Source: a virus. Taken from it: DNA of 24,774 bases. The notes beneath the pieces are model-generated. The model searched no databases. It saw nothing but the letters and a program-made list of their open reading frames with translations, and was not told the origin of the DNA. The DNA lies in the IMG/VR virus record IMGVR_UViG_3300031963_000884, positions 1-24,774 of that record; one strand, given 5' to 3'. Position 1 is the first letter of the stretch. The number at the start of each line of letters is the position of its first letter. Shown piece by piece: positions 6,681-24,774 of this stretch. The position numbers were made by a program, and so were the translations under genes.

Positions 6681-7850
6681 TTACAAAAACAAATCATTAT
6701 CTGGATTCTCATCTAAGTCAAAGCTTAGATCAAAATCATCATTCTTATTCTCTACAACTACTGCAACTTTAGTAGATTCATTGAGGTTGATAGTATCAAA
6801 TGATACTCTCTCCTCTTCCTCAAAGATTTCATATTCTTCAGGAGTAGGTTCTAGAGATGGAACATTCCATACTAGTTCTTCAGCTTCAGCCTCAAACTTC
6901 TCAGATATTGCCTCAGTTAACTCTTCTGTAAATGTTACATCTACCACTTGAGCTTCAAATGTATTACCTTGAATATCAGTATATTGAACTGTCTCACTTA
7001 AAGTAACACTTGAAGGTTCTTCTTCTACTTCAGCAATCTGATCTAACAGGTTAGTCTGATTAGGAATCACATAGAGTGGATCAATAGCTGGTGCACTAAG
7101 CTCTTCATCTTGTGTAAGATCCGGTGCTGTTGCAGTAAGATCAAACTCATTACTAATTACCCAGTGTAGCATTCTTTGGTCTTCCATCCAAGTTCTTGGG
7201 TGAGACTGCTGTAATGCTACAGTTACGTGGTTATAGAATGCCCAGAGAGTATCTTTACCACCATTGTAGAAATAACTAGGCTTATCCATTTGTTGACGGA
7301 TAATACTAGCCTGCTCAGTAGTAAGAATCTCATACTCTGCAAACAGAACACCAAGCAACTCAGCTTGTTTTCTTGTACTCAGAGTAATAGTCTTCATTAC
7401 TTCTTTATCAGCAACCAACTGATTATAATACATAGTAGCATTAACAATCTGACTTTGCATACTTGCAATCACATCTGCATCTGCTGTACCCGTATGCTTT
7501 CTAGCATAGCTACCAAGTTCACCGGCAAGCATTACAGTTTGATTAGAATTTACATAACCACCTGTTGCACACTTAAATCTTATTTGCTTGTTATAACTGT
7601 TTGTCCATGCAAACATGACATTCATCTCAGGATCAGTACCATACTGCAACCTGTATATACCTTGAGCAATCTGCCCATCAATTGAAGACCTATACTCTTC
7701 ATTTAGAATACCAAACCCTTGATTAGCTAGTTCTTGATTAGCATAATCAATAATAGACTTGTGAGAAATTACAGTGTAACTCTGCCCATGTACAGGCAGA
7801 GGAACATTCTCCAGATAATTTCTGGTTACATCTTTAATTTTTCTTGGCAT
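6681..7850 (-). CDS. DUF932-like phage protein with acidic C-terminal tail
   Basis: 389 residues. The central part resembles the DUF932 (phage/plasmid-like protein) family: an early block with I-Y-R-L-Q-Y and C-A-T-G-G, a region around 160-190 with repeated aliphatic residues, and TLWAFYNHVT (201-210) followed by HPR and LHW. The function of DUF932 proteins is unknown; they are common on plasmids and phages near replication or repair genes. Residues about 245-389 form a very acidic, low-complexity tail ending in NDLFL, likely disordered and perhaps a protein- or DNA-mimic surface. The gene starts 2 bp after the PolB stop, so it is co-transcribed with the polymerase, and it is the last gene before the convergent terminator. 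The family call is from memory of conserved pattern only. Confidence 0.6.
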   Translation of the reverse strand: MPRKIKDVTRNYLENVPLPVHGQSYTVISHKSIIDYANQELANQGFGILNEEYRSSIDGQIAQGIYRLQYGTDPEMNVMFAWTNSYNKQIRFKCATGGYVNSNQTVMLAGELGSYARKHTGTADADVIASMQSQIVNATMYYNQLVADKEVMKTITLSTRKQAELLGVLFAEYEILTTEQASIIRQQMDKPSYFYNGGKDTLWAFYNHVTVALQQSHPRTWMEDQRMLHWVISNEFDLTATAPDLTQDEELSAPAIDPLYVIPNQTNLLDQIAEVEEEPSSVTLSETVQYTDIQGNTFEAQVVDVTFTEELTEAISEKFEAEAEELVWNVPSLEPTPEEYEIFEEEERVSFDTINLNESTKVAVVVENKNDDFDLSFDLDENPDNDLFL

Positions 7851-10797: not shown

Positions 10798-11811
10798 TTA
10801 GAGTTTTACATTACCTACTGCTAGCTCATAGGGCAAGGTGTAATCTCTACTCTTGTAATGATACTCTAACTGTGTAAGAATATCATAGAAATTATCATAC
10901 CACTTAGCCAGTGTTTCTTCAGACACTTGGAAAGGATAGACTTGGTTATACTTATCAATAACAATAAACGTAATTACAATCTTCCATTCTTCAGAGTCTG
11001 TTTTGTTTTTTATGAATTCATTATAAGCTAAAATTGAATAGATCACTGCTTGAATATCATAACGATAATAATCAACTGAGTTTGGGAAATCCTGAATTGC
11101 TTTGTTAGTTGTCTTTAAGTCATTAATAAATAAAGTTTTGATGTTTTCATCTACAACAACATTGTCAAGGATACCCTTGTAACCAAAATCATATTTGTCA
11201 GAATCAGACATCAATGGTAACTCCTTGAACACTGTGACATTCTGAGAGTTATCATGATCCAATTGAAGTAAAGCTTTAACCTTGTCATTGTTTCTGAGAA
11301 CCTCAACTGATGTTTCTGCCTGTTGTTTTACTGCAGGGTCAATTACAGTTTTAGTATCTCTGATCTTTAAGAAATCAAAATATTCTTTGTTGTTGTCAGT
11401 GAGAATCTTCTCTACTCTTTGAGCATCAGTCTTGAGTGATTGATAAAGATTATTTGTGAGTAGCTGATTGAGTATCTCTTGCGGGAAGTCTTCCAAAGAT
11501 AATGAATTATTATTCATTGGAACATAATGATTATTAAAAATATGATCAATAATCACCTTGTTACTTTCTGTTGGAATCTTACCCGGTAACATTACAAAGT
11601 AATCATCAAACTTATTTGGTTCAAACAGAAGACAGTGCAGTGCCCTACCCGCAATCAGGTGGGCATCTGTCTTATCTTCTTTCTGTTTCAGTATATAGTG
11701 ACTATAAAAAGCTTGTGGTGAATACATAAGCTTGTTTATGCTACTATAACTGAAATAAAATTTCTCAGAATAGAATCTTTCTAATTCCTCATTCAATATG
11801 CTCAGGCTCAT
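10798..11811 (-). CDS. PD-(D/E)XK exonuclease, RecE/DUF3799-like
   Basis: 337 residues. The N-terminal FSYSSINKLMYSPQAF segment (20-35) and the AGRALHCLLFEP block (54-65) match the start of RecE-type (exodeoxyribonuclease VIII C-terminal, PDDEXK-like) nucleases. Catalytic core candidates are His59, Glu197, Asp216 (in GILDNVVV), Asp231-L-Lys233 (in NDLKTT), and the QxxxY helix at Gln254-Tyr258, all in the expected order. Such enzymes resect double-stranded ends to leave single strands for annealing recombinases; the Sak4-like ATPase at 18809-19558 is a natural partner. The start codon lies inside the upstream gene (23-bp overlap) and has the only clear Shine-Dalgarno sequence seen in the window, AGGAGG 6 nt before ATG. 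The specific DUF3799 name is from memory; the nuclease fold is clear. Confidence 0.85.
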   Translation of the reverse strand: MSLSILNEELERFYSEKFYFSYSSINKLMYSPQAFYSHYILKQKEDKTDAHLIAGRALHCLLFEPNKFDDYFVMLPGKIPTESNKVIIDHIFNNHYVPMNNNSLSLEDFPQEILNQLLTNNLYQSLKTDAQRVEKILTDNNKEYFDFLKIRDTKTVIDPAVKQQAETSVEVLRNNDKVKALLQLDHDNSQNVTVFKELPLMSDSDKYDFGYKGILDNVVVDENIKTLFINDLKTTNKAIQDFPNSVDYYRYDIQAVIYSILAYNEFIKNKTDSEEWKIVITFIVIDKYNQVYPFQVSEETLAKWYDNFYDILTQLEYHYKSRDYTLPYELAVGNVKL

Positions 11812-12847
11812 TTTTTGCCTCCTTTTGTTTTAAATATTCCATTACTGACTCATCAAAGGTGATCTTAGCAACCTTAAGGAATTTTGTGTTTCCTCCATAC
11901 TCAATGTCTGATTTGTACTGTTCAAGAATTCTGCGACCTGCTTCTTTAGTAAAAACATCCTTATCTAACTGAATTTGAATTACATCATCTATCCTCATAC
12001 TACAATATGTAGTACTAGTGAATCCCATATAAGAACACAAAGACTTAAAGTTTACATGATTTCTTGTTTTCTGATCTGATATTCTATTAGAATATTTCTC
12101 AAATAGAAAAGATAGATACAGTAAACTCTCATTATAGTTACAGTTAGCCATGATCTCCATTGCAAGAGTCCAGTTATCTTTATCTGAACTTGTAAACATT
12201 TCAGTAAGAGTCTGGTACATTGCTTCATCAATAGTAGTAGAGTCTTCTCCGTTTACAATACTGATTAAAGATGCCTCATCATAAATATCATTTTTTGCAA
12301 TATGCTCATACAAGTCTTCATAGTCTTTATTTATATAAGTAAAGCCTACAGAATATCTAGAATAATTTTCAGTATCATAATGATAATGCTTTAGTATGTT
12401 ATGAAGATCAGAACCACCAATAACTATATCTTCTTTATAGTTATTTAGAATTTCCATAATCTCCTTGTATCTAGACTCTCCTATATCTACACTTCTTTGT
12501 TCAATCAGATCTTTTACTATTTCAGTTTTAGCATAATGATACCATCTTCTATCAGACAGTGCATTTATAGTTTTGATGCCTGTAATAATCTTAGTTGCAT
12601 CAGATATGTCACGTACTGTTTTAGATTTAGTACTAGCATAGAGATCTTTTAGTTTTATTCTTGGAATAGTTACTCCAGGCAGAAAATAAAACTTCTCATT
12701 CTGTCCAATACTAATATCTTTGTGTACAGTAATAAATTCAGACAAATCTTTTTCATTGTGATCATCCATATATCCTAATACAAAGGATAAGTCTTTAATT
12801 TCCAGCGGACTGTAATTATTAAAATTTATATGAAGATATCTTTTCAT
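11789..12847 (-). CDS. Hypothetical protein, 352 aa
   Basis: I do not recognise this protein. It is soluble, rich in Tyr, Asp, Ile and Asn, with predicted helices throughout. The segment VGFTYINKDYEDLYEHIAKND (around 166-186) and a region with several Cys/Met (CNYNESLLYLSFLFEKY, CSYMGFTSTTYCSM) are the most distinctive parts. No catalytic motif was found. The 3' end overlaps the RecE-like nuclease by 23 bp, so the two are translationally linked. It is the first gene after the two hairpins at 12862-12926. Confidence 0.8.
   Translation of the reverse strand: MKRYLHINFNNYSPLEIKDLSFVLGYMDDHNEKDLSEFITVHKDISIGQNEKFYFLPGVTIPRIKLKDLYASTKSKTVRDISDATKIITGIKTINALSDRRWYHYAKTEIVKDLIEQRSVDIGESRYKEIMEILNNYKEDIVIGGSDLHNILKHYHYDTENYSRYSVGFTYINKDYEDLYEHIAKNDIYDEASLISIVNGEDSTTIDEAMYQTLTEMFTSSDKDNWTLAMEIMANCNYNESLLYLSFLFEKYSNRISDQKTRNHVNFKSLCSYMGFTSTTYCSMRIDDVIQIQLDKDVFTKEAGRRILEQYKSDIEYGGNTKFLKVAKITFDESVMEYLKQKEAKNEPEHIE
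11818..11823 (-). promoter_or_regulatory. Shine-Dalgarno AGGAGG of the RecE-like nuclease
   Basis: AGGAGG on the - strand ends 6 nt before the ATG at 11811, which supports that start. It lies within coding sequence of the upstream gene (codons for K-Q-K-E-A-K), so it could be chance, but no other gene here has such a site. Confidence 0.5.
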
Positions 12848-12941: not shown

Positions 12942-14117
12942 TTACCTGACTGCCATCTTGACTACCGCGTTGTCCATCATGAGCTTACTAAACTTAACTT
13001 TGTTACCATTGACTATCTCTTTGACCATATAATATCTAAGGTCATCAGTAAATGAGTCACAGTCTGTAGTCAGTTTTACCAATCTCTTAATCATTGCATC
13101 TGGCACACTATTGTTTTCTGCATGATGTAGACAATAGTTGATAACACGAGTAGTAATCACACTAGACAAATCTGCCCGGAAGTCATCTCCCTTACCAACT
13201 GCACTTGTCAAAGCACCAATTACATACTGCTCATTAGGATTATTTATGATCTCCTGTGGTGGTATAATCTTATCCAACTTGTTATTAATAAACATAGTGA
13301 ATAGACTAGCTACCTCATCACCAACAGAACCCTCACCAATCATTTGAATCAACGGCAAGCTTTCTTCAAACTTTTGAATAGAACTAATTGAGTTAAAGAA
13401 AGTAGTAATTGATCTTGGGTTAACAGACTTACCAATAACCTCTGGATTCATCAACATAAAGTTGATACATCTACCATCTATGCCTGCAGATTCTGCCCAC
13501 TTAGCCCATACGTTTACATCAAAGTCTACCTCAACAGAAATAAATCTGGTCTTCTGAGCTACGTCAAGACTAGTAACATTATAGTCACCATTGTCTGGAT
13601 TGGTAGTCAGAACAATATGCCAGTTCTTTGGTAACTTCCAAGAGATATACTCTTGTCTGTCAATTAATTCCATAGTAGCTTGCATAAATCTATGATCTGC
13701 ACGAGTATAGTCATCAAGAATCAAGAAGCCACCTTCACCCTGTCCCTGAATCCACTCAGGAGAAGCATGAGACATTCTGCTTTGACTTGTAGGTCTAAAT
13801 CCACCTTTGATATAAGTATCAAGCAAACTCTCTTGTATCCATTTCTTAGCTCCATCTTTGTTCTCAACCTCAAACTCTTTGAACGGAAAACCAACCAAAT
13901 CACCTAACTCCTCAATCTGACTTAGATTAAGTTTAATTACAGCCATGTCAAGCTCTTTTGCAAGTTGCAGGATAGAAGAAGTCTTACCAAGACCTGCCTC
14001 ACCCTCAATATTAACAGCTACAGGAACTTTACCCTGAGCTTGAATAAACTGGTTGTTAACAACCATGTGATTTATAAAATTTTTCAGTTCATCAATGTTT
14101 AATTTTACTTGAGCCAT
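12942..14117 (-). CDS. MoxR-type AAA+ ATPase, partner of the VWA protein
   Basis: 391 residues. Walker A GEAGLGKTS at 39-47 (Lys45), Walker B FLILDD at 131-136, sensor 1 in TTNPDNGDYN (Asn173), and a candidate arginine finger in AQKTRF (Arg191). The order and spacing match MoxR-like AAA+ ATPases, which act with von Willebrand factor A proteins to remodel protein complexes or insert metal cofactors. The upstream neighbour, 11 bp away, encodes exactly such a VWA protein. The stop of that gene overlaps the A-rich leader of this one. The C-terminal 190 residues should form the lid and helical domain. The substrate is unknown. Confidence 0.9.
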   Translation of the reverse strand: MAQVKLNIDELKNFINHMVVNNQFIQAQGKVPVAVNIEGEAGLGKTSSILQLAKELDMAVIKLNLSQIEELGDLVGFPFKEFEVENKDGAKKWIQESLLDTYIKGGFRPTSQSRMSHASPEWIQGQGEGGFLILDDYTRADHRFMQATMELIDRQEYISWKLPKNWHIVLTTNPDNGDYNVTSLDVAQKTRFISVEVDFDVNVWAKWAESAGIDGRCINFMLMNPEVIGKSVNPRSITTFFNSISSIQKFEESLPLIQMIGEGSVGDEVASLFTMFINNKLDKIIPPQEIINNPNEQYVIGALTSAVGKGDDFRADLSSVITTRVINYCLHHAENNSVPDAMIKRLVKLTTDCDSFTDDLRYYMVKEIVNGNKVKFSKLMMDNAVVKMAVR

Positions 14118-14120
14118 TTT

Positions 14121-14132
14121 GTTTGTTTTTAA
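14121..14132 (-). promoter_or_regulatory. Shared A-rich leader motif, copy 2
   Basis: The - strand reads TTAAAAACAAAC, ending 3 nt before the ATG at 14117. The TAA inside it (14129-14131) is the stop codon of the VWA gene, so the motif sits across an intercistronic junction and looks like a translation signal rather than a promoter. Confidence 0.55.
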
Positions 14133-15358
14133 AGTTCTAACTTAATTACTTTGCCAGGAAGGCTATTATTCATACTTGATCTTTCAGACAGAACCCATAA
14201 CACTGGATTCTTTGGTTTTACACTAGCACCACATTCACCATCAGTAAAATAAATAAGGCTTGTATACTTTCTAAGATTTGCATTATAATACTCTAATACT
14301 GGGTCAAACTCAGTACCACCACGACCATGTACTTTTATCTCATCTTTACCATTGTATGGTTCTATAGATCTAATAACAGTATCACATTGGATAATAGTAA
14401 TATCAACTCCGGTCTTATGGATGTGTTGCATCTCATTCATAAACTCTTGAAGTTCATCATTACTCACTGACCCAGAAGTATCTATACCAAGAAGCATATG
14501 CTGTTTCATCTTAATCTTAAGACCTGGATTATCAGAATATCTCCTGTTCTCCTTTCTGCGTATCTTCTTAGTAAACACCTTTGTGCTATTTCCAGTAAAC
14601 CTTCTAATATATCCACGCCAGTCAAACTTAGGTGGAATTATTTGATTTGCTTTAATTAGAAAGTCTTCAATATGACCAGGTACATTACCCCTTTTCTTAG
14701 CAGTTTGTTCTGCAACTTCATTAAGTAGAGTAGCTAACTGCTTTTCAATAAGCTTTTGCTCTGCTTCTGGTAAGTTTTCAAACTCCTCCCAAGTACCATG
14801 ATTAGGCATGTTTACTTCCTTATCACCCATAGGCCCTCCAGATATTACAACAGTAATTGCACCAGCTTCCATAGCATCACATAACTTATCAAAGTTAGAG
14901 TCACCTGAGCTACCGTTCTGTTGCTTTTGCTGTTGAGCTTTCTTCAGCTCATCATAATAATACCTAGTACCTGCTTTTCTCTGTAAATTCAAATCAGGAT
15001 AATCATCTATATTAATACCACCTTCAGGAAGAAACTCGTCATCAATATATTGATTGATCTCCATATCCATTGCAATGTTTGCCATTCTCTTATCCTGAAA
15101 CTCAAAGAATTTACTCAAATGAAAATATGCAATATGCAATAACTCATGTTTCAGAAGACCCAGTCTGTGATTATCAGAAAGATCTGTCCAAAAGTCTTCA
15201 TTAATAGTAAGCTGATAGTTGATACCATTCTTACTAACACCGGCTGTGGGAACTCTTTTATCCCACACCTTATTTAGCATAATAAGAAAGAACCCATAGA
15301 ATGGCTCTTTCCACATCAAGTCTTTACTTGCCTTTGCAAGTGTTGCTGCTTTACTCAT
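14129..15358 (-). CDS. VWA-like protein with metallopeptidase-like N domain (DUF2201 type)
   Basis: 409 residues. The N domain has HELLH (71-75) and MANIAMDMEIN (92-102), the usual layout of the putative metallopeptidase domain of DUF2201 proteins, where an Asp could be the third ligand. A Gln/Asn/Ser-rich linker (about 140-155) and a helical part follow. The C domain has the metal-ion-dependent adhesion site of VWA folds: DTSGS (293-297), GGTEF (347-351) and TDGE (372-375). With the AAA ATPase downstream this makes a MoxR-VWA chaperone pair: the VWA protein likely presents the target and the ATPase remodels it. The start overlaps the preceding stop in ATGA. Whether the HExxH site is catalytic is unknown. 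Confidence 0.88.
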   Translation of the reverse strand: MSKAATLAKASKDLMWKEPFYGFFLIMLNKVWDKRVPTAGVSKNGINYQLTINEDFWTDLSDNHRLGLLKHELLHIAYFHLSKFFEFQDKRMANIAMDMEINQYIDDEFLPEGGINIDDYPDLNLQRKAGTRYYYDELKKAQQQKQQNGSSGDSNFDKLCDAMEAGAITVVISGGPMGDKEVNMPNHGTWEEFENLPEAEQKLIEKQLATLLNEVAEQTAKKRGNVPGHIEDFLIKANQIIPPKFDWRGYIRRFTGNSTKVFTKKIRRKENRRYSDNPGLKIKMKQHMLLGIDTSGSVSNDELQEFMNEMQHIHKTGVDITIIQCDTVIRSIEPYNGKDEIKVHGRGGTEFDPVLEYYNANLRKYTSLIYFTDGECGASVKPKNPVLWVLSERSSMNNSLPGKVIKLEL

Positions 15359-15750
15359 TGTTCTTTGAGTTTAATATCAATAACCATTTTGTCTGTAGGG
15401 TAACCCATACTCTCAAGCATTCTTGTAAGTTCTCCAACATGTCTGTTTAGAGTTAGCTCAATTGCATCCTTACTAGTTTTCAAATCTATCATAATTTGAA
15501 TTGCTCTTGCATAAGTTAAGGGTCTCTCAATATTTATATGCTTCTTAAGTACAGCAGTTGCCTTGGGAGCATTTGTCTTCCACTGGTCAATAGTATACTT
15601 AGAAAACTTATAGAAGTAAATCAGATATCCAACATTGTCACTACTAAATTTAAAAGCCTCAATTGCAGCAAAACCTATTGTTGCATTCTCCTGATCTGTA
15701 GACAGCAACATAGTCATTACATTCTCAGCTTCTTCTTTGCTTATTTTCAT
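15355..15750 (-). CDS. Hypothetical protein, 131 aa, in the AAA-VWA operon
   Basis: I do not recognise this protein. It is predicted all-helical, starting with MKISKEEAENVMTMLLSTD and with a central aromatic patch YLIYFYKFSKYTIDQW (about 42-57). The layout of short helices (an 'N-A-T-I-G-F-A-A-I-E-A' segment) hints at a helical-repeat or adaptor fold. ATGA overlap with the VWA gene downstream and TGATG overlap with the DUF6915-like gene upstream indicate coupled translation, so an adaptor or substrate role for the AAA-VWA pair is a reasonable guess. Confidence 0.8.
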   Translation of the reverse strand: MKISKEEAENVMTMLLSTDQENATIGFAAIEAFKFSSDNVGYLIYFYKFSKYTIDQWKTNAPKATAVLKKHINIERPLTYARAIQIMIDLKTSKDAIELTLNRHVGELTRMLESMGYPTDKMVIDIKLKEQ

Positions 15751-16091
15751 CAGTCTTCAATTTTAATTGTTCTAATCATCCACTCCTTTGGACTGTTAAT
15801 GTTATCAATCCATTCTTTTGCACTAGGAATATATCCAAAGCAATCCTCCTTTACATGTTGTTCACCTATGTATCTGGTATATACTGTTTTACCTATAGAG
15901 TTAATAAAGCTAACTCCAAAAAGTCTTTCCAATTCAAATATACCTTCACTGTGATGCCTAAACATTCTATGCATGCTATTTCCTAACCAAGCTTTAGTAG
16001 CATCAAACCATTCATGATACTTTAAATACTCTTCAGGTTCTCCACCCCATTTCCGGGCACTAGATTTAGCATGTTCATACGGATGTGCCAT
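15750..16091 (-). CDS. DUF6915-like protein
   Basis: 113 residues. The start MAHPYEHAKSSARKWGGEPE, the HEWFDATKAWL segment, the HRMFRHHSEGIF segment (41-52), and YIGEQHVKED (74-83) followed by IPSAKEWI match what I recall of the DUF6915 family, a small phage and bacterial family of unknown function. Five conserved His residues in the HRMFRHHSEG and EQHVKED blocks could bind metal. It overlaps the neighbouring genes on both sides by 1 bp, inside the AAA-VWA operon. The family name is from memory. Confidence 0.8.
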   Translation of the reverse strand: MAHPYEHAKSSARKWGGEPEEYLKYHEWFDATKAWLGNSMHRMFRHHSEGIFELERLFGVSFINSIGKTVYTRYIGEQHVKEDCFGYIPSAKEWIDNINSPKEWMIRTIKIED

Positions 16092-16255
16092 TATAAAGAA
16101 CTTATTTTTTCAAGTGCGTCTTCTTTTGCCTGTTGATAACCTTCAGCATGTGCATCCTCTATTAAGTCTTCAGCATATTCAATTATCTCTTGCTTTAATT
16201 CATCTGTCAGAGTTTGAGTATCCAAATTCTCTAACCAAAATCTAAAATCATCCAT
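16091..16255 (-). CDS. Small acidic helical protein, 54 aa
   Basis: This ORF fills what would otherwise be the largest gap in the operon. Translation runs from the ATG at 16255 to TAA at 16091-16093 and begins MDDFRFWLENLDTQTLTDEL; the rest is a long acidic amphipathic helix ending in EKISSL. It overlaps the upstream gene by 8 bp, and its stop overlaps the next ATG in TAATG. This tight coupling and the lack of any other use for the interval support a real gene. The function is unknown. Confidence 0.7.
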   Translation of the reverse strand: MDDFRFWLENLDTQTLTDELKQEIIEYAEDLIEDAHAEGYQQAKEDALEKISSL

Positions 16256-16655
16256 TAGTTTTTTCTGTTAGTTTACCTTCATGAATATGATCAATAACAT
16301 TATTTACTCGTATACTATTGTTTATTCTATAGTCACCAGAGGGAATATGTATTACTACATAACCAAAACCACCTTCTTCATTCCACCAGTCTTCTATATT
16401 ATCTAACAAAGTTCTATATGCATAATTCTCTAACTGTGCATATAAAGATGAATCAAGTTTTTGTAAATCATTATTGTAATCAATACCATGATCGTACATC
16501 TCTTCTAATGTATCAAGATCATCAATCATTTTTTCTGTATATGTAATTTGTTCTATTTGCCCAGAGTCTCCTCCGCCATCATATGATATAAATATTCCAC
16601 CAATACCCTTATTGGCCAACTCAACTAAGAGGCCTGTTACTTCTATTTCTGTCAT
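16248..16655 (-). CDS. DUF6878-like protein
   Basis: 135 residues. The SYDGGGDSGQIEQITY segment (24-39), the DWWNEEGGFGYVVIHI segment (88-103), and the closing N-x-x-R (112-116) fit my memory of DUF6878, a small family of unknown function found on phages and plasmids. The acidic glycine-rich GGGDSG loop is the strongest mark. It lies 2 bp downstream of the GIY-YIG gene and overlaps the 54-residue ORF. Confidence 0.65.
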   Translation of the reverse strand: MTEIEVTGLLVELANKGIGGIFISYDGGGDSGQIEQITYTEKMIDDLDTLEEMYDHGIDYNNDLQKLDSSLYAQLENYAYRTLLDNIEDWWNEEGGFGYVVIHIPSGDYRINNSIRVNNVIDHIHEGKLTEKTNG

Positions 16656-16657
16656 AA

Positions 16658-17083
16658 TTACTTTGTTTTGTAAAACCTACCTAAGATGTTACTATTCAAG
16701 TATTCATCCTTCTCAAGAACCTCATACATAAATTGATACTTAGTCTCTTGATATGTTAGCTCAGTTTTTGAGTTACATATACGGAGAATCTCTCTTTTAA
16801 CTACTCCTCCAGACTTTGCAAATTCTTTAAGAGTCTTGTTACTGCTATAGTAATTTATAAAGTCAGGCTTTAATTCATGCCTATACTTCTTGAGTCTCTT
16901 ATCAGTAACCATAGCCAGAGCTTTTTTACCCAACGGCTTCTTGATATTAGCAAAGAAGTTTTTCTTTCCTATGTAAGCAACAGATTTCTTATCTATTATG
17001 GCTGTCATAATATAAATAAACCCTACTGCTCCTTCAGGAATATCCTGTATTGTAAACTCTTTACCTTCAAATATCCAACTCAT
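16658..17083 (-). CDS. GIY-YIG nuclease, SegE-like
   Basis: 141 residues. GFIYIM (21-26) and AYIGKK (36-41) form the two halves of the GIY-YIG signature, here FIY and YIG. Further support comes from YYSSNKTLKEF (78-88), KREILRIC (96-103, candidate catalytic Arg97) and TYQETKYQF (110-118, candidate metal-binding Glu113), then N-x-N near the end. This layout is that of the stand-alone Seg-like phage endonucleases, often homing enzymes. It may instead be a resolvase or domesticated nuclease, since it is tightly packed: its start overlaps the primase stop in ATGA and no intron or duplicated flank is visible. Confidence 0.8.
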   Translation of the reverse strand: MSWIFEGKEFTIQDIPEGAVGFIYIMTAIIDKKSVAYIGKKNFFANIKKPLGKKALAMVTDKRLKKYRHELKPDFINYYSSNKTLKEFAKSGGVVKREILRICNSKTELTYQETKYQFMYEVLEKDEYLNSNILGRFYKTK

Positions 17084-24018: not shown

Positions 24019-24774
24019 TCAGAAAATATATCTTATTGTGTTCCAAGGTATAATCTGGTCATGTAGCTCAGTAAACTGTTTAATATACTCAGCTTTTAGA
24101 TCATGTTTATACCTGATATTCTTACCACCATACTCAGATATTTTACTCTCTTGTATTTCTGGTTTCCATAATAGCTCCTCACCTGGTAGATTATGCTCTA
24201 GATTGTACAAATGTTTCTGTTCATTGTGTGTTAAGAAGATTACTTCAGCTTTGACATCATTAGTATCCCAGGCAAAAACATTTGCTCTTGCACTAACTGC
24301 ATCAAACAAATCCCTGTAACTTTCTAACCAAAAAGCTTTTACAATGACAGGACTAAAATTAAGATGAACTTCATAGCCAGCATCAATAAACATATCAAGG
24401 GCTTCAATTCTTTCAAACGTAGAAGAAGTATTTGGTTCAAGTATTCTTCTATAATGTTCAGGCATAAGACTAAATCTAATTCTGATTTTACCTTCAGGAT
24501 TAAACTTAAGTAAATCCTTATTTACATACTTAGTAGCAAATGAACCCATAGCAAGTGGATGATCTCTAAAGAATGCAAAGATCTTTTCCCATTCATGATA
24601 TTTAGCATGCAGAGCAAAGTCTTCATTACAAGAAATATCATAAGTTACATACTCTCCCGTCTGATTTGGTTTCTCTACATCTGCAAAGTATGCATGTGAA
24701 TTAATCTCCGTCAGGATATCCATAGTATTAGTTGCTATGCTTAATCCTTCCGGTTTGTGTCTCTTCATGTAACA
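24019..24774 (-). CDS. Spore photoproduct lyase-like radical SAM protein, 5'-truncated
   Basis: At least 251 residues. The Met at 24768-24766 is probably internal: the codons just before it at the window edge read Cys-Tyr, so the protein reads CYMKRHKPEG, which fits the last Cys of the radical SAM CxxxCxxC cluster of SPL (YCY at its end). The first two Cys would lie beyond the window. The EVHLNFSPVIV segment (about 153-163) and the GKIRIRFSLMPE block (93-104) are typical of SPL. SPL repairs the thymine dimer spore photoproduct with S-adenosylmethionine and a 4Fe-4S cluster; a related photoproduct or other dimer may be the target in a phage. It is the first - strand gene of the window. Confidence 0.8.
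   Translation of the reverse strand, partial: CYMKRHKPEGLSIATNTMDILTEINSHAYFADVEKPNQTGEYVTYDISCNEDFALHAKYHEWEKIFAFFRDHPLAMGSFATKYVNKDLLKFNPEGKIRIRFSLMPEHYRRILEPNTSSTFERIEALDMFIDAGYEVHLNFSPVIVKAFWLESYRDLFDAVSARANVFAWDTNDVKAEVIFLTHNEQKHLYNLEHNLPGEELLWKPEIQESKISEYGGKNIRYKHDLKAEYIKQFTELHDQIIPWNTIRYIF

Follow-up and report, generated by a model that had tools for sequence, protein, structure and literature searches.

Recurrent association of a DUF6878-DUF6915 gene cassette with an AAA-VWA pair in crAss-like and other phages

Do small overlapping phage genes beside a predicted ATPase and its partner belong to one functional system, and what would such a system act on? This question is raised by a gene cluster in the 24.8-kb IMG/VR fragment IMGVR_UViG_3300031963_000884 (the window below means this whole stretch of 24,774 nucleotides). 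Six open reading frames (ORFs) lie on its minus strand between positions 16655 and 12942, encoding in reading order a DUF6878 protein, a 54-amino-acid (aa) protein, a DUF6915 protein, a 131-aa protein, a metallopeptidase-VWA protein and an AAA+ ATPase. The first-pass annotation treated them as one unit of nearly all overlapping genes. Their positions and strand were confirmed, as were overlaps of 8 bp (DUF6878/54-aa), 1 bp (54-aa/DUF6915), 1 bp (DUF6915/131-aa) and 4 bp (131-aa/VWA), but the VWA and AAA genes are separated by an 11-bp gap. Purifying selection acts on each of the six genes, with ratios of nonsynonymous to synonymous substitution rates (dN/dS) of 0.07-0.58, each below 1. Since the gene order is kept in about 80 IMG/VR relatives (a comparison set of 80, with 64-100% identity to the window), the cluster is more than a chance arrangement. 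However, the six genes did not hold together as a single unit, because most relatives lack the 54-aa gene and the 131-aa gene is confined to this clade. What held was the AAA-VWA pair and its link to DUF6878 and DUF6915 (the cassette), which recurs in unrelated phages. That the combination is shared by unrelated phages and two cellular genomes suggests a functional module not described before.

The cassette and its association with the pair

The first cassette gene (16248..16655, minus strand) encodes a 135-aa DUF6878 protein (Pfam PF21798, 49.3 bits against a cut-off of 24.3), which is strongly acidic (isoelectric point (pI) 4.2, net charge -18) and the fastest-evolving of the six (dN/dS 0.44-0.58). 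The second (15750..16091, minus strand) encodes a helical 113-aa DUF6915 protein (PF21866, 137.1 bits against 27). Presence in the clade was counted in 54 loci spanning the primase gene to the gene of a 352-aa protein beyond the AAA gene; DUF6878 was found in 54/54 and DUF6915 in 48/54. No paper on either family was found in the literature. Residues H7, D30, H41, R42, H46, E77, H79 and D83 of DUF6915 are invariant in the alignments, and the His, Asp and Glu residues among them would suit a metal site, with no structure match in support.

DUF6915 was also detected in 112 isolate records, mostly of Streptomyces and Gordonia phages. In these isolates, as in the majority of viral contigs surveyed first, it adjoins an acidic protein of phrog_9564. 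Two classes of DUF6915 were thus distinguished by their neighbour, phrog_9564 or DUF6878, and no locus carries both. Comparison of the two neighbour families gave hhalign probabilities of 2% and 0.5%, with shallow alignments. The phrog_9564 protein carries the motif QYTPYFNDGD.CEF and is paired with DUF6915 in L083, L085-L091 and about 50 viral contigs among L093-L172 (L numbers are our locus numbers). This other pairing is conserved in Streptomyces, Gordonia, Sinorhizobium and cyanophage genomes, and no published account of it was found. A link between DUF6915 and a Ro-like VWA protein, suggested by Streptomyces phage Daubenski, was dropped because the remaining DUF6915 isolates examined did not show it.

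The starting point for the association was contig L171, which is GC-rich and unrelated and carries AAA - DUF6878 - DUF6915 - VWA in this order; its DUF6915 was used for the scan. Flanks of up to about 6 kb were examined. AAA and/or VWA genes were present there in 22/43 distinct non-crAss DUF6878-DUF6915 loci, compared with 0/56 DUF6915-phrog_9564 loci (Fisher 1.8e-10, uncorrected for kinship); where the flanks were complete, either gene lay near the DUF6878-type cassette in 12/24. Kinship was treated by clustering only, most loci are fragments, and gene starts were taken as the first ATG, GTG or TTG. The VWA proteins of the cassette loci, taken with those of the crAss-like clade, form seven clusters with less than 40% identity between them, one of which includes gp25 of phage N4. 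Among 16 DUF6878-type contigs picked because their flanks did not show the complete pair, 13 were without any DUF2201_N (metallopeptidase-VWA) protein, and in two of the other three it lay within about 6 kb. It was found in 1/20 of the mostly large phrog_9564-type contigs, and seven whole genomes of phrog_9564-DUF6915 isolates had none; the huge phage LR756502 has one, located far away.

Cassette and pair occur in at least seven gene orders, several of them with overlapping genes, such as DUF6878-DUF6915-AAA..VWA in L288, DUF6915-DUF6878-AAA..VWA in L266 and VWA-DUF6878-DUF6915 in L270. When both are on one contig they are close in every lineage but one, and by a rough estimate random placement is very unlikely. 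Two contigs with both units are cellular: an Opitutaceae contig (L348) with VWA - AAA - DUF6915 - DUF6878 - DUF6878, and an alphaproteobacterial contig (L339) with AAA - DUF3150-like - VWA - DUF6915 - PcfJ/DUF6878 beside apparent plasmid-type genes. In the reverse direction, the cassette was found beside 4/25 relatives of the L269 VWA and 1/4 relatives of the L288 VWA, always as both genes or neither, and scans with the L171 and L348 VWA proteins gave no further viral lineage. The cassette is present in 24/26 cellular contigs found through DUF6878. In cellular contigs DUF6878 is also fused behind a PcfJ-like domain (L339:5005-6405, with PcfJ below its cut-off; L337:5209-6402, by eye). One Reinekea ORF (L337:4604-5284) has tandem DUF6915 domains by eye, and an extended DUF6915 ORF (L331:1729-2574) gives a much stronger match than single-domain DUF6915.

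Judged by this distribution, the cassette and the pair are separate units repeatedly brought together, since each is found alone, yet they are often close. Our preferred reading, held tentatively and at a little under even chances, is that AAA and VWA form a remodelling machine driven by ATP, which acts on or through the two cassette proteins in the replication phase. Several observations weigh against it. The cassette stands without the pair in about half of the phage contigs and on four plasmids (L354-L357; three alphaproteobacterial, one Teredinibacter), where no DUF2201_N protein is encoded and the DUF6915 gene beside DUF6878 is annotated merely as a hypothetical protein. The pair stands without the cassette in N4, a Moorella phage and 21/25 of the L269 VWA relatives (some with short flanks), so neither unit strictly needs the other. 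In addition, the predicted DUF6915 model (predicted local distance difference test (pLDDT) 93) had no significant Foldseek match in the PDB and gave no clue to a function; its top VIA-align Z of 5.7, to an archaeal filamentous virus protein (6wq2), is within the range of chance. By the first-pass annotation, small genes that mostly occur without the pair would speak against one system. This is the case for DUF6915 with phrog_9564 (0/56) and on plasmids (0/4), but not for the phage DUF6878-DUF6915 cassettes, about half of which adjoin the pair.

The independent occurrence of the two units would also fit a neighbourhood without shared function, in which both favour the same early or middle operon position and meet at insertion hot-spots. 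Other portable genes such as SegE-like endonucleases are close by, and the phage records are mostly fragments. However, direct adjacency in several unrelated lineages with differing orders, the difference between the two DUF6915 classes and the presence of the combination in two cellular genomes all argue against this explanation, which we regard as unlikely.

The AAA-VWA pair and its placement in phage genomes

The metallopeptidase-VWA protein (409 aa; 14129..15358, minus strand) matched DUF2201_N and DUF2201 (PF13203 and PF09967) with 64.7 and 63.6 bits against cut-offs of 23.2 and 26.4; this makes it a fusion of zincin-like metallopeptidase and VWA domains. In an alignment of 16 sequences including N4 gp25 and the Moorella phage protein, both motifs are intact: the HExxH zincin motif HELLH (residues 71-75; 15134..15148) is invariant together with H80, and so is D293-x-S-x-S of the metal ion-dependent adhesion site (MIDAS) motif DTSGS (residues 293-297; 14468..14482) together with T349 and D373. 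This family is labelled 'HNH endonuclease' in PHROG 1314 and in many RefSeq phage records. The Pfam domains and motifs of the VWA family speak for an annotation error.

The AAA+ protein (391 aa; 12942..14117, minus strand) matched PHROG 1297 'ATPase' at 1.9e-36, and its best PDB sequence match was midasin (3.5e-7). It scored below every Pfam AAA cut-off, the MoxR-type AAA_3 giving 13.1 bits against 27, and was therefore filed as a MoxR/midasin-like AAA+ of PHROG 1297 rather than as MoxR proper. Its Walker A residues G42, G44 and K45, Walker B D135, sensor N173, R191 and R235 are conserved out to N4 gp24; Walker B is DD instead of the usual DE. The AAA and VWA genes occur together in 74 loci, mostly 7-18 bp apart. 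Group I introns split the AAA gene right after Walker B (about residue 142) in three loci (L004:7344-7580, L005:2791-3027 and L323:3604-3830); an insertion occupies this site in L060 and L061, and another lies in Walker A of L072 with no Rfam match. An intron at Walker B is characteristic of a gene that is conserved and functional.

By itself the pair is already known, having been described as a core pair of N4-like phages and in jumbo phages. Relatives of the metallopeptidase-VWA protein were found by tblastn in 362/50,697 phage records. In N4-like phages (Schitoviridae), gp24 and gp25 are core genes of unknown function (PMC4193335; PMC7650795). N4 gp24 (AAA+) and gp25 (vWFA) belong to the same two families, are adjacent, and align with the window proteins at the ATPase, HExxH and MIDAS residues. 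They differ from the window in their low identity (about 25%), in the order AAA then VWA and in the lack of DUF6915; DUF6878 was not found in N4 either. A pair of the same architecture, a MoxR-like AAA with an N-terminal metallopeptidase fused to vWA, is reported from group 2.2 jumbo phages, and the part of that paper available to us mentions no DUF6878 or DUF6915 partner (PMC7824862). No tested function of the phage pair was found in the literature.

For the jumbo-phage pair a role in virion assembly was proposed by analogy with Acidianus two-tailed virus (PMC7824862), and virion protein genes lie near gp24/gp25 in N4-like roseophages (PMC4193335). The window pair could likewise be a chaperone-protease processing structural proteins, with the small genes as unrelated passengers. 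Its placement differs, however. The near-universal order in the relatives is DnaB - 176 aa - AAA_24 - 225 aa - primase - SegE - DUF6878 - (54 aa) - DUF6915 - 131 aa - VWA - AAA - 352 aa - PD-(D/E)XK - 188 aa - 124 aa - family B polymerase, so that the pair lies within a replication block in the window and relatives alike, on the strand opposite to a 2213-aa ORF. N4 gp24/gp25 are middle genes outside the late block (PMC4193335). This middle or replication placement speaks against virion assembly, as does the occurrence of the set in the alphaproteobacterial and Opitutaceae contigs, and we give that explanation a low probability.

Flanking proteins and other genes of the window

The 131-aa helical protein (15355..15750, minus strand) matched no Pfam or PHROG family. 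In 130/141 VWA-bearing loci, re-fetched copies counted, a 110-165-aa gene finishes where VWA begins. A profile built solely from genes in this position matched the C-terminal domain of the 352-aa protein (11789..12847, minus strand) at 2.8e-13, with 1.7e-13 in reverse and an hhalign probability of 96.9%. The pair therefore lies between two genes whose proteins have a helical domain in common. The 352-aa gene keeps its position after AAA in the relatives and lies beyond the range of the first-pass annotation. Because of this homology across the AAA gene, the cluster reaches to 11789. The predicted helical model of the 131-aa protein (pLDDT 90) had no significant Foldseek match in the PDB, and its top VIA-align Z of 4.6, to ARM repeats, is within the range of chance; the fold resembles ARM/HEAT repeats at best loosely. 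Against BFVD, its top matches, at Foldseek E 0.08-0.13, were podovirus proteins of 378-396 aa from crAss-like and related phages, which fits the homology to the 352-aa protein.

The acidic 54-aa ORF (16091..16255, minus strand) overlaps both neighbours and is present in 8/54 spanning relatives, with dN/dS about 0.23 where present. It is coding yet poorly conserved, and it probably lies outside the core module. The small gene before DUF6915 in actinophages is alike in size and overlap, but an equivalence was rejected as the sequences have no similarity.

The lineage is crAss-like, since the major capsid and portal proteins of crAss001 have distant homologues in its larger members. No cultured member of it was encountered in our analysis, and the cultured phages searched, crAss001, crAss002 and phi14:2, have no DUF2201_N protein. 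After the primase gene of Cellulophaga phage phi14:2 (L175, 19565-28370), gamma-glutamyl cyclotransferase, ATP-grasp and amidotransferase genes replace the SegE-to-AAA stretch of the window. The SegE-like GIY-YIG protein upstream of DUF6878 (16658..17083, minus strand; PF19835, 78 bits) is encoded in 54/54 spanning relatives and was treated as a conserved flank outside the proposed module. A DUF932 protein gene (6681-7850) adjoins the polymerase gene, and a DUF932-like protein was also seen by eye near DUF6878-DUF6915 in L169. The ORF at 24019-24768 matched the spore photoproduct lyase family SPL (66 bits), unexpected inside a phage replication block.

Proposed action of the combined module

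MoxR-like ATPases act via VWA partners, and the AAA+ proteins of the bacterial systems NorQ-NorD, RavA-ViaA and CbbQ-CbbO work with a VWA-MIDAS partner as in the window, so the window pair likely works alike. In these systems, whose known targets are respiratory, CO2-fixing or membrane enzymes, the VWA partner is to our knowledge not a metallopeptidase fusion of the DUF2201 type. Phages and plasmid-like elements have AAA - DUF3150-like - VWA clusters (L290, L339), which share the DUF2201 VWA and AAA and are sometimes beside DUF6878-DUF6915; their DUF3150-like gene, a match below the Pfam cut-off in L290 and recognised only by eye in L339, was not recognised in the window. For NorQD, the ring was proposed to twist and stretch a linker of the partner, enabling metal insertion into the target (PMC13036017).

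In the remodelling reading that we prefer, the AAA+ ring and the metallopeptidase-VWA protein would form an ATP-driven machine like NorQ-NorD and RavA-ViaA, in which the ring would pull a VWA protein docked via its MIDAS. In many phage lineages the machine would act on or through the small DUF6878-DUF6915 two-protein unit, and the pulling may load, activate or dismantle a DUF6915-containing complex in the early or middle replication phase. In the crAss-like clade, the 131-aa and 352-aa helical-domain proteins may be additions that act as adaptors or scaffold. We infer here that a complex forms, which way it acts, and that DUF6878 and DUF6915 serve as client or adaptor. A more specific version, which we find rather improbable, makes all four proteins one portable system of mobile elements, with the AAA-VWA machine maturing or loading a DUF6915 metalloprotein and acidic DUF6878 as its chaperone or inhibitor, directed against a conserved host target or building a replication complex.

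The properties of DUF6878 bear on another possibility, counter-defence or host takeover, which had been suggested for the cluster from the start. The machine would then dismantle or inactivate a host complex, and acidic DUF6878 would serve as inhibitor or as a mimic of DNA. A very low pI is shared by DUF6878 (median 4.1) and its alternative phrog_9564 (median 4.4), DUF6878 evolves fastest, and the cassette is mobile among phages and plasmids, which share defence pressures. However, acidity is common among phage proteins, no recurring defence genes were seen beside the cassette in the loci examined, and the core proteins gave only noise against PADLOC models (DUF6915 to E2, 15 bits), which represent defence rather than counter-defence proteins. 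The suggestion thus gained no direct support and is considered doubtful.

Under the remodelling reading, the cassette would supply concrete candidates for the target of a machine that is a core pair of N4-like phages and present in many others. The cassette is common to crAss-like phages, other phage lineages, chromosomes and plasmids, and its small proteins make the role of the machine testable, while DUF6878 and DUF6915 gain a shared context.

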